The notes below the pieces were generated by a model. It was not told the origin of the DNA. It ran no database searches and worked only from the letters and a program-made list of their open reading frames with translations. This document shows positions 1-9,360 of a DNA stretch of 9,482 nucleotides, one piece after another. Source of the stretch: Burkholderiales bacterium (GTDB lineage Bacteria > Pseudomonadota > Gammaproteobacteria > Burkholderiales > Casimicrobiaceae); the NCBI GenBank assembly GCA_031277445.1, contig JAITMH010000208.1, positions 1 to 9,482 on the forward strand. The letters are read 5' to 3'. Made by a program: the position numbers and the translations under genes. The number at the start of each line of letters is the position of its first letter. Positions within the stretch are counted from its first letter, which is position 1.

Positions 1-34
1 CTCCCCCGCTTGCGGGGGAGGGTTGGGGAGGGGG
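1..34. repeat. GC-rich palindromic repeat, copy 1 (inside aroE frame)
   Basis: The core CTCCCCCGCTTGCGGGGGAG is a stem of eight GC-rich pairs, followed by GGTTGGGGAGGGGG. It is an inverted relative of the copy at 71-110, and a third relative lies at 8992-9016. On the minus strand it reads as part of the open aroE frame (residues about 280-290, Pro/Ser rich). It may continue left of the window. Confidence 0.75.
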
Positions 35-871
35 CTGGTCTGCGCACAATAGACTGATTTGACTACGATTCCCCCCATCCCGGCCTTCCCCCGCAAGCGG
101 GGGAAGGAGAGAAACATGAGCTTTTGCGACAGCCCCTTGAAGGGGTGGGCTTTCATTGTCCATGGGAACAGCCACCTTCAAACTGGTGGCGTGAATCACG
201 AGATCAAACGTCCCTTGATCAAGCTCCCCCGAAAAATCGGAAACCGCAGACAGCGCCGCGTCGGGGTAGGCAGCGGCGAACCGGTGAACAAGACGCTGCG
301 CTTTGTCAGCGCTCCGGTTCCATAACACGATCTGCGATGGCCGCGCATCGAGCAATGGCTCCAGGATTCCGGCGGTTGCGCCGCCCGCGCCCAGGATCAG
401 AAGCCTCTGTCCGGCTAACGACAGCCCAAGTCTGCCTGTCAAATCGCGGACAAGCCCGACGCCATCGGTATTGTCGGCGTGCCAGCCGCTTGCCTCCTTT
501 CCAAAGGGGGTGCCCGCCAAAGGCGGGCGGGGGTTTGTCTCCTCTTGCGGGAGAGGGGTTAGGGGAGAAGGGGAAGCCGAAAACGCAGCCGCCGTCAACG
601 TATTCGCCGCTGCCGCCAAACGTGAGCGTTCGCTGACATCAGAAGCAAAGCGAAAAGCCGCGTCCTTGAACGGCGCCGTGACATTCATACCAACACCCCC
701 ATCGGCAAAAAACGCCCGGGCGACGTCGGTAAAGCCGGAATCATCGGCAGTCACCGGCGCTTCGAGGCGCCGGTAAGCAATCGCAATTCCTGTCTGTTCT
801 GCAAACGCCTGATGAATTTCAGGCGAACGGGAATGCGTAATGGGGTTGCCGATGACGGCGAAATGTCTCAT
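1..871 (-). CDS. aroE: Shikimate dehydrogenase (AroE), 5' part, with in-frame repeat insertions
   Basis: AroE reduces 3-dehydroshikimate to shikimate with NADPH in the cytosolic shikimate pathway. Read on the minus strand from ATG 871-869, the frame stays open for 290 codons to the window edge, so the 3' end is missing. The N-terminal substrate domain is clear: GNPITHSRSP (residues 8-17), NVTAPFK (63-69, catalytic Lys69), AANTL (88-92) and DNTDGVG (133-139, catalytic Asp136). The NADP site is GAGGA (161-165), followed by a WNRS strand and HATS (227-230). By comparison with E. coli AroE as I remember it, the stretch between Asn90 and Asp136 has 30 extra residues (about 97-128), exactly the translated palindromic repeat. 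A second repeat pair is translated from about residue 254 onward, where a motif like CYDMxY would be expected. Whether the enzyme is active or a decaying gene cannot be decided without the missing 3' end. The ribosome site (GAAGA before ATG) is weak. The start is chosen by family alignment. Confidence 0.88.
   Translation of the reverse strand, partial: MRHFAVIGNPITHSRSPEIHQAFAEQTGIAIAYRRLEAPVTADDSGFTDVARAFFADGGVGMNVTAPFKDAAFRFASDVSERSRLAAAANTLTAAAFSASPSPLTPLPQEETNPRPPLAGTPFGKEASGWHADNTDGVGLVRDLTGRLGLSLAGQRLLILGAGGATAGILEPLLDARPSQIVLWNRSADKAQRLVHRFAAAYPDAALSAVSDFSGELDQGTFDLVIHATSLKVAVPMDNESPPLQGAVAKAHVSLLPPLAGEGRDGGNRSQISLLCADQPPPQPSPASGG
71..110. repeat. GC-rich palindromic repeat, copy 2 (inside aroE frame)
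   Basis: The core CTTCCCCCGCAAGCGGGGGAAG is a perfect palindrome around the central pairs. With copy 1 it forms an inverted pair separated by a roughly 36-base spacer that is not itself palindromic. On the minus strand it encodes a PPLAGEG-type peptide (residues about 257-263) within the aroE frame. The same peptide arises on the plus strand from the related copy near 8995-9010. Confidence 0.78.
492..580. repeat. Composite palindromic repeat inserted in frame in aroE
   Basis: Two modules lie side by side. Module A (492-539) contains a hairpin GCCCGCC/GGCGGGC flanked by runs of G, and it aligns closely with 9085-9130 in reverse orientation. Module B (about 540-578) contains CCTCTtgcggGAGAGG followed by a GGGGTTAGGGGAGAAGG tail, and it resembles 8285-8328. 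Together they span about 90 bases, matching the 30 extra residues seen between the conserved NTL and DNTDG motifs of AroE. There is no stop or frame change across it. Confidence 0.8.
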
Positions 872-3336: not shown

Positions 3337-3367
3337 CATCACGGGAGAACAAAGATGAAAAATTTTC

Positions 3368-3583
3368 TAGCGCGTTTTTGGTTTAAATATATACAATACG
3401 AACGAAACGATACCGTGTTTTTCCGGGTTCCCGCCTTCGCGGGAGCGTCGGGGAAAAATGCGACACTTGCGACGCCCTCTTCCGTCGAACACCGTCCTTG
3501 CGGAAGCGATGACCTGGAACGGTTTTTGGAAGCCGAAGTGCGCCTGAACAACAAACGCCTTGGCTTAAACCAAAACCGCTCTA
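3368..3583. mobile_element. Putative MITE-like element with 17-bp terminal inverted repeats and flanking TA
   Basis: The left end reads TA then GCGCGTTTTTGGTTTAA (3368-3386). The right end read in reverse gives TA then GAGCGGTTTTGGTTTAA (3583-3565). Fifteen of 17 positions match beyond the TA. A TA at both borders fits target duplication by IS630/Tc1-type transposases, and the small size with no transposase suggests a non-autonomous element. It sits within the pilX remnant. A TTCCCGCCTTCGCGGGA-type hairpin (3428-3444) lies inside it. Confidence 0.45.
3421..3455. repeat. Short palindromic repeat (TCCCGC/GCGGGA)
   Basis: TCCCGC (3429-3434) and GCGGGA (3439-3444) flank CTTC. The context GGTTCCCGCCTTCGCGGGAG is the dispersed repeat seen in many proteobacterial genomes and similar in layout to neisserial dRS3 (ATTCCCN8GGGAAT). 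It is translated in the pilX remnant as a PAFAGA peptide. Confidence 0.65.
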
Positions 3584-3765
3584 ATGGTTTCGCCGCTTTT
3601 TTTGCGGCGACAGAATTGCCCCGATCCGTGGATACCACCACGGGCATTGCAGGCGGTCTGATTTCCAAACGTAACGCCTCTGCACGCAGGGCGCCCGCAA
3701 GGTGGGCGATGATGAAATGGGGATGGCTTTTTGGGTGACTTTTTCCCGCACAAGAAAACCGCTCA

Positions 3766-8237: not shown

Positions 8238-8284
8238 GCCGGGTCACCATGCGAGCCATAGGGCACAAGCAGGAAAGGTTTTTT

Positions 8285-8328
8285 CCCCTCTCCCCTCGTG
8301 GGAGAGGGGCAGGGGGAGAGGGGGGGAG
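8285..8328. repeat. Palindromic repeat between yqaA and gloA
   Basis: CCCCTCTCCC (8285-8294) and GGGAGAGGGG (8300-8309) are a perfect 10-bp stem around CTCGT, followed by a G/A tail CAGGGGGAGAGGGGGG. It is the same family as module B of the aroE insertion (540-578) and a relative of 3816-3862. It sits in the divergent intergenic region, so it could influence transcription of either gene. Confidence 0.75.
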
Positions 8329-8875: not shown

Positions 8876-8948
8876 TTAACAGCAAAGAACGCAAAGAAAA
8901 AAATCGGCGTCATTGCGAGGAGCGAAAGCGACGAAGCAATCCAGTTGG

Positions 8949-8976
8949 CCTCACGCGAAGGCGCGAAGCCGCGAAG
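8949..8976 (+). repeat. Left arm of perfect 28-bp inverted repeat
   Basis: Starts CCTCACGCGAAGGCGCGAAG and is exactly the reverse complement of 9143-9170. Internally it is built of GCGAAG units. Confidence 0.9.
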
Positions 8977-9084
8977 AAGAACTCAACGCCGCTCCCCCCG
9001 CTTGCGGGGGAAGAGCTTGCCCCCGAAGCGCTTTTGATCGGGGGCTGGGATGGGGGGGTGCGGGCGGGACGCCCGCGCTCCGAC

Positions 9085-9130
9085 GACAAACCCCCGTCGG
9101 CTTCGCCGACACCCCCTTTGAAAAGGGGGC
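9085..9130 (+). repeat. Copy of the module found inserted in aroE
   Basis: GACAAACCCCCG, then a variable hairpin (GTCGGC/GCCGAC), then CACCCCCTTTGAAAAGGGGG and C. The same order (GACAAACCCCCG, hairpin GCCCGCC/GGCGGGC, CACCCCCTTTGGAAAGGAGG, C) occurs on the minus strand at 539-492 inside aroE. The flanks are conserved while the hairpin arms differ but remain complementary. Confidence 0.8.
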
Positions 9131-9142
9131 TTTAAAACACAC

Positions 9143-9170
9143 CTTCGCGGCTTCGCGCCTTCGCGTGAGG
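9143..9170 (-). repeat. Right arm of perfect 28-bp inverted repeat
   Basis: Starts CTTCGCGGCTTCGCGCCTTC and is the exact reverse complement of 8949-8976, with 166 bases between the arms. Confidence 0.9.
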
Positions 9171-9327
9171 CAAAACGCTGGGATTCGCTGCGCTCATCGC
9201 CAGCCTACGATTCTTCGCTTTGCGCAGACGATCCTTTTTTCGTGCCTTTCGTGGTTAAACGCTTTTTTCTTCGCGTGAGAGCGTTTTCTGGATTGCTTCG
9301 TCACTTCATTCCTCGCAATGACGCCGG

Positions 9328-9360
9328 AGGAGCCTGGCCCCTAATTCCTGATCCCTGATC
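9328..9360. repeat. Short dispersed repeat with CCTGATCCCTGATC
   Basis: CCCCTAATTCCTGATCCCTGATC contains two tandem CTGATC units and abuts the end of the leftward gene, overlapping its stop codon (TCA at 9359-9361 on this strand). It resembles junk repeats common in repeat-rich proteobacterial intergenic DNA. Confidence 0.45.

Follow-up and report, generated by a model that had tools for sequence, protein, structure and literature searches.

How can a gene for shikimate dehydrogenase remain open over 290 codons when blocks of repeated DNA lie inside it? aroE raises this question at the left edge of the window, the whole stretch of 9,482 nucleotides analysed here, which makes up the entire contig C46 of an incomplete MAG (1,337,145 bases in 211 contigs, 73% complete), hereafter the present genome. 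The first-pass annotation saw that the frame stays open despite the repeat blocks, as we confirm up to the contig edge, and left two options, selection that keeps AroE with added peptides or an early pseudogene. We hold with high confidence that this aroE carries dispersed repeats in frame and is likely a working enzyme with predicted disordered loops, and that MITE-like insertion followed by filtering through selection would account for it. The nearest public relatives of this AroE are MAGs labelled Burkholderiales, Betaproteobacteria or Proteobacteria, and the isolate names Nct323_bin2 and Cu122P4bin11 lead us to guess at a termite-gut origin of the genus. The features of the gene and of its inserts are as follows:

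2..871, minus strand: aroE (shikimate dehydrogenase), 290 codons, cut at the contig end and carried on in contig C118
485..586, minus strand: site-1 in-frame insert, from NTL to DNTDG (SPSPLTPLPQEETNPRPPLAGTPFGKEA), net +30 residues relative to the congener G002
573..586, minus strand: GCGTTTTCGGCTTC, taken, from a comparison by eye with the 5′ end consensus, for what is left of the 5′ inverted end of the element
1..166, minus strand: site-2 in-frame insert after HATSLK, with two hairpins, running past the window onto C118
2..34, unstranded: left arm of an inverted pair (CCCCCGCTTGCGGGGG hairpin), from the inverted-repeat search of the window
72..104, unstranded: right arm of the same pair, from the same search

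The frame at 2..871 on the minus strand is free of stops and was identified as shikimate dehydrogenase by Pfam (N-terminal and NADP domains) and by NCBIfam, in which the best score of 216.5 narrowly misses the cut-off (221), presumably owing to truncation of the protein in the window. The missing part was found on C118, whose end matches window bases 1-166 with 98.2% identity; the join between C46 and C118 depends on this overlap of 166 bp with 3 mismatches. C118 holds a single open frame of 151 codons, which encodes the rest of the site-2 insert and the C-terminus of AroE and then ends at a stop. Thus the N-terminal substrate domain, the NADP domain and the SDH_C motif are all present, the last of them above its cut-off in the overlapping open frame on C118, and the leftward extension proposed by the first-pass annotation does take the open frame past the Gln-containing helix of the C-terminus and up to a stop. 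The joined protein has, by coordinates, ~386 residues, ~100 of them in the inserts, versus 280-303 in eight AroE proteins of the clade without a visible repeat insert. No second aroE was found in the assembly of the present genome (73% complete), the Rfam search of the window gave no match, and no tRNA gene lies in the window.

Both inserts consist of DNA that occurs many times elsewhere. In the sample of the present genome (61 contigs, 399,779 bp) with three added loci, site-1 insert DNA gave 43 matches and site-2 insert DNA 21 matches at E<0.01 outside the aroE of the window, some of the latter lying on C118 as the continuation of aroE itself, whereas two stretches of AroE flanking the inserts gave 0 and 1. 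Moreover, a 17-mer of the hairpin occurs 35 times in the genome with at most 1 mismatch, versus once for the reversed control. The first-pass reading of the blocks as repeats is therefore upheld, and only their limits need revision. Site 1, placed at 492-580 with about 30 codons, indeed adds a net 30 residues between NTL and DNTDG in the alignment with G002, but rather spans ~485-586 together with the remnant of the inverted end; the second pair, placed at 1-34 and 71-110 after the HATS motif, is real, but its arms (33 nt, 85% complementary) lie at 2-34 and 72-104, and its insert runs on to C118. The A block at site 1 is in the same phase as in-frame copies of the commonest element of this genome. 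Site 2, a composite of two hairpins, represents a second repeat family; no inverted ends were recognised in it, and its unit appears again within folC on contig C98 (161 bp, 91% identity). Further copies lie in the window outside aroE:

8284..8323, minus strand: copy of the A block of the element, 98% identical to the PgeF copy, from a sequence match
8992..9013, plus strand: copy of the hairpin of 85-106, from the repeat search of the window
9085..9130, unstranded: relative of the site-1 NPRPPLAGTPFGKEA block, from repeat pairs I3 and I19

Outside the inserts, AroE appears to be under constraint. Over 203 codons in common with G002, dN was 0.125 and dS 1.04, giving a dN/dS of ~0.12, and the pN/pS of AroE ranked 82 among 181 gene pairs; with this ratio and this middle rank, decay is unlikely. 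Residues that are invariant across relatives are kept, including the Lys, Asn and Asp known as catalytic. In the tree with the inserts and the missing C-terminus masked, the branch of this AroE is short, with several deep nodes weakly supported. The long branch of the unmasked tree was rejected as an effect of misaligned insert and truncation columns.

The predicted structure is in keeping with additions at the surface. The AlphaFold2 model has a mean pLDDT of 77.7, with most core blocks at 88-97; values below 50 occur at residues 104-122, 232-240, 257-271 and 273-284, all within the inserts, of which the second coincides with the cut end of the protein in the window. Best Foldseek matches of the model are AroE, and its core fits AroE crystal structures. 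The inserts are hence predicted to be disordered surface loops, and, judging from conserved residues and substitution rates, the insert-bearing AroE is likely still a working shikimate dehydrogenase. Of the two options of the first-pass annotation, the ratio of ~0.12 and the frame that stays open through C118 support selection on an AroE with added peptides and speak against the early pseudogene.

Alignment with relatives showed either no insert or repeats of partly different make-up at matching loops, which bears out the claim of insertion. G006 has a different repeat at site 1, whose DNA matches 20 places in our sample of the present genome, and G003 and G007 have repeats at site 2, matching 62 and 17 places. 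Thus the three inserts that were compared at the DNA level are dispersed repeats, with partly different make-up. Since a TPSPPAPLPQ block is common to the site-2 inserts of G003 and of the present AroE, these two may be one old, remodelled insertion. Altogether, repeat-like inserts occur in 7/15 AroE proteins of the clade, spread over three loops:

Site 1: P0001 and P0012
Site 2: P0001, P0005 and P0015
Third loop, before FDLVIHATS: P0004, P0007 and P0009, judged from the peptide alone

We read the masked tree, in which several nodes are weak, as six or seven putative gains of inserts, or as fewer gains combined with losses.

The commonest element has a 108-nt core (FPLSPRGRGCPEGAGEGE...PSPPAPLPQGERG) between ends near TAGAGCGGTTTCGGTTCAAGCG and CGCTTAAACCAAAACCGCTCTA. 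It is MITE-like in having terminal inverted repeats of ~20 bp (TAGAGCGG...CCGCTCTA). The 20-base end pattern was found, with at most 2 mismatches, 41 times in the present genome, 53 times in G010, 32 times in G003 and 5 times in G002, versus 0 for reversed controls in the present genome and 0 to 2 per genome overall. In sampled loci of the present genome and its congeners, 25 end pairs were found (at most 4 mismatches per end), 23 of which are 75-248 bp apart. One complete copy lies in the window outside aroE:

3368..3583, plus strand: 216-bp MITE-like element copy with inverted ends at 3368-3387 and 3564-3583, downstream of a PilW-like ORF

The small ORF that spans this copy (3355-3738) matched no Pfam family. 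Many copies of the element have TA at both ends. In this, and in being short and multi-copy with inverted ends, it resembles MITEs of the Correia and NEMIS type, whose target is TA. The present element differs from them in its many in-frame genic copies and its nested GC-rich hairpins, and it belongs to this class as a candidate, no autonomous partner having been found among the Y1_Tnp matches and the one 828-bp end pair that were looked at for a transposase with these ends. That pair was rejected as an autonomous partner, as it encloses an rnhB-like ORF.

The lengths of the end pairs carry a hint that TA is duplicated as target on insertion. With an offset picked after inspecting the data, length minus 2 was divisible by 3 in 4/4 genic end pairs, those of TrpE, PgeF and PrmC and that of the L304 epimerase, which was placed by eye; this is expected if insertion duplicates TA. 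Of two pairs in the upstream part of a long ORF, both of which precede the family match, L330 obeyed the rule and L327 did not, and 4/17 others obeyed it. Stop-free frames are few in number: among the 23 end pairs, exactly one is open in 12, two in 8, three or four in 2, and none in 1. In 18 of 60 core copies (30 each from the present genome and G003), the longest spanning frame is a sense ORF of at least 400 aa; 16 of these copies share a phase and the remaining 2 use a different one, although the 18 are not all independent, some being common to both genomes and some lying at gene ends or outside the family match. This bias was rejected as proof of peptide function, since one full copy has only one of its six frames open; on the other side, stop-free frames are the majority in shorter pieces of the element.

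Insertion in frame is not peculiar to aroE. Bases covered by at least three matches elsewhere make up 5.5% of the 61 contigs with the three added loci. With the window set aside, the remaining 60 contigs hold eight genes that were matched to families by NCBIfam or Pfam and carry in-frame repeats, namely Mfd, RecJ, Mpl, TrpE, NnrDE, TruB, PgeF and a sugar epimerase, and six more came from loci that had been chosen for a repeat or a transposase (FolC, PrmC, HypF, AroA, a second epimerase and TrhP), making 14 besides aroE. For Mfd, RecJ, Mpl, TrpE, NnrDE, FolC, PrmC, HypF and AroA, the NCBIfam profile matches in two stretches, and the one listed ends near the insert; TruB and the epimerase have theirs toward the C-terminal end and PgeF toward the N-terminal end. 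In addition, the linker of an ABC ATPase (L159) contains a short repeat, Pth and HisA have repeats close to their C-termini, and three repeat-bearing ORFs (L175, L212 and an acyltransferase-like one) gave no family match at the thresholds used. Thus the first-pass annotation was right about the in-frame repeats and missed their genome-wide scale, their inverted ends and the repeated use of the same AroE loops.

In G003, inserts split PrlC, FolC, GcvT and TrhP, lie in the N-terminal part of an epimerase and of HrpA, and, in the ORFs of ThiL and TrpE, come after the family match has ended on the C-terminal side; another repeat-bearing ORF (L339) is without family. An insert loop is common to the present genome and G003 in RecJ and in Mpl, the latter loop being used also in G004 and, shortly, in G007; by eye, FolC, TrhP and an epimerase also have common sites. 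Contents at the common AroE and Mpl sites differ at least partly between species. The CCCCCGCNNGCGGGGGA hairpin has 0 matches in G002 and G006 and 59, 87 and 31 strand hits, most sites being counted on both strands, in the present genome (G000), G003 and G007, and hence repeat load differs sharply within the genus.

Comparison with G002, of whose genome ~57% was sampled, shows what kinds of insertion are found in genes. In 184 ortholog pairs, the present genome has 19 insertions of at least 10 residues, of which 9, in 8 genes, bear repeats, counting one that is the window itself and three from L003 and L005, loci that were added on account of their repeats; G002 has 7, and the single one scored as repeat looks by eye like the misalignment of an ABC paralogue. 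No repeat-broken gene was seen among the 184 pairs. In a tblastn check, 10 adjacent pairs were found, with a frame change in 7 and a repeat in between in 2 of those 7; these two were rejected as broken genes, both being 5′ overhangs of stop-to-stop ORFs. Multi-copy bases amount to 894 of 192,912 (0.46%) in aligned coding sequence versus 20,752 of 206,867 (10.0%) in the rest, which takes in genes absent from the G002 sample. pN/pS exceeds the median in seven of the eight repeat-bearing genes that were tested (ranks 110-171 of 181), and L175 has a dN/dS of ~0.4; mild relaxation is therefore inseparable from insertion into tolerant genes.

We infer that a MITE-like element with ~20-bp inverted ends, possibly with TA as target, would insert at many sites, and that most copies offer a stop-free frame or two. 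Within genes, selection would purge those insertions that cause a frameshift, run into a stop or strike a structured part. Survivors would be in-phase copies in loops, which may then be reshaped by deletion and by nesting of further repeats.

Other explanations have to be weighed against this one. If repeats had struck an unneeded gene whose frame is open by chance, aroE would be an early pseudogene; the size of the inserts, more than a quarter of the protein, the raised pN/pS of most repeat-bearing genes and a small genome, which could imply relaxed needs, all fit such decay. We nevertheless consider it very improbable in view of the low dN/dS, the middle pN/pS rank, the short masked branch, the invariant residues and the intact C-terminus of AroE, and of the in-frame inserts that recur in other housekeeping genes, with no broken gene seen in the 184 pairs. 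It is hardly credible that the inserts are assembly artefacts, with metagenome contigs misjoined at repeats. The window does terminate within a repeat and the MAG is fragmented, but the inserts are internal to contigs and in frame in many genes, a random join keeps the frame only ~1/3 of the time, and other MAGs of the genus have inserts at the matching AroE, RecJ and Mpl loops.

The elements could also be GTAG or CGTC REPs moved by a REP-associated tyrosine transposase (RAYT), like those found within genes of Thauera and other species. Short hairpins, high copy number, intragenic copies and the presence of Y1_Tnp matches in 9/11 genomes of the genus would suit this origin, which we regard as improbable: GTAG lies within 15 nt of 3/39 hairpins, against 5.5% of random positions, and CGTC within 15 nt of 0/39, against 25%; the commonest element has longer inverted ends, and the Y1_Tnp matches inspected by eye look mostly IS200/IS605-like. 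Of eight Y1_Tnp loci scanned for repeats of the present genome, only a RAYT-like ORF of G003 is flanked on both sides, by another repeat family. Whether the added peptides are useful and not just tolerated, for example as solubility or partner-binding linkers, is a further matter. The single peptide frame in 16/18 long-ORF copies and the insert sites common to the present genome and G003 speak for it; we think it unlikely, as the frame bias may stem from stops in the other frames and the contents of the common AroE and Mpl sites vary at least in part from species to species. A related idea, tentative and rather unlikely, is that the element has evolved a protein-safe frame, its ends and core having about one frame free of stops, which encodes a soluble, disordered, Pro/Gly-rich peptide, and thereby colonises loops of essential enzymes. 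If true, a peptide-encoding parasite would be spreading among the coding sequences of a small genome.

Insertion with selective filtering, the explanation that we prefer, has precedents. Rickettsia RPEs are ~150-bp repeats found in frame in many unrelated genes, where they yield an added peptide (PMC10969869, in excerpt), and the likeness drawn by the first-pass annotation is apt as one of way of working: in both cases repeats are inserted in frame within genes under selection. The present host belongs to another bacterial class, and its element shows inverted ends and a possible TA target. The excerpt of PMC3733652 describes intragenic GTAG/CGTC REPs, which are hairpin repeats within ORFs of Thauera, Thioalkalivibrio, O. 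terrae and others, and names S. maltophilia, E. lithoralis (spelling of the source), S. alaskensis and R. conorii as species in which truB is struck by other repeats. Going by that excerpt, intragenic REPs and the present repeats share hairpins inside ORFs and truB as a common target, while the tags are not enriched next to the present hairpins and the element is bounded by ~20-bp inverted ends. As such REPs are already described outside Rickettsia, our case is less unprecedented than the first-pass annotation held. RPEs and intragenic REPs, as far as the excerpts go, are its nearest precedents; a search limited to open-licence papers found none on the present case. truB of the present genome (L181) is struck near its C-terminus.

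Rickettsia is the best-known home of in-frame protein repeats, and other cases are scattered. In the present betaproteobacterial genus, enzymes for amino acids, the cell wall, DNA repair and tRNA carry them, and together with congeners without repeats at matching loops they form a scan of conserved enzymes by natural insertions. An old question, how selfish repeats become protein sequence, is thereby made testable.

Some neighbouring structures may be recorded. The RAYT-like Y1_Tnp ORF of G003 (L045, C121, 1293-1979) has flanking inverted repeats of 122 bp (83%), and their family occurs dispersed in the present genome as well. One Y1_Tnp match of the present genome, at L037 (C126), contains an internal TGA. 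At L392 (G010:C42:1600-2600), two element ends facing each other enclose the rnhB-like ORF, which was recognised by eye. In the window, a nested island of inverted repeats occupies 8900-9330 (8945-8976/9143-9174, 8905-8926/9305-9326 and 8926-8944/9288-9306), and other hairpin copies of the present genome also sit amid comparable repeat mosaics.
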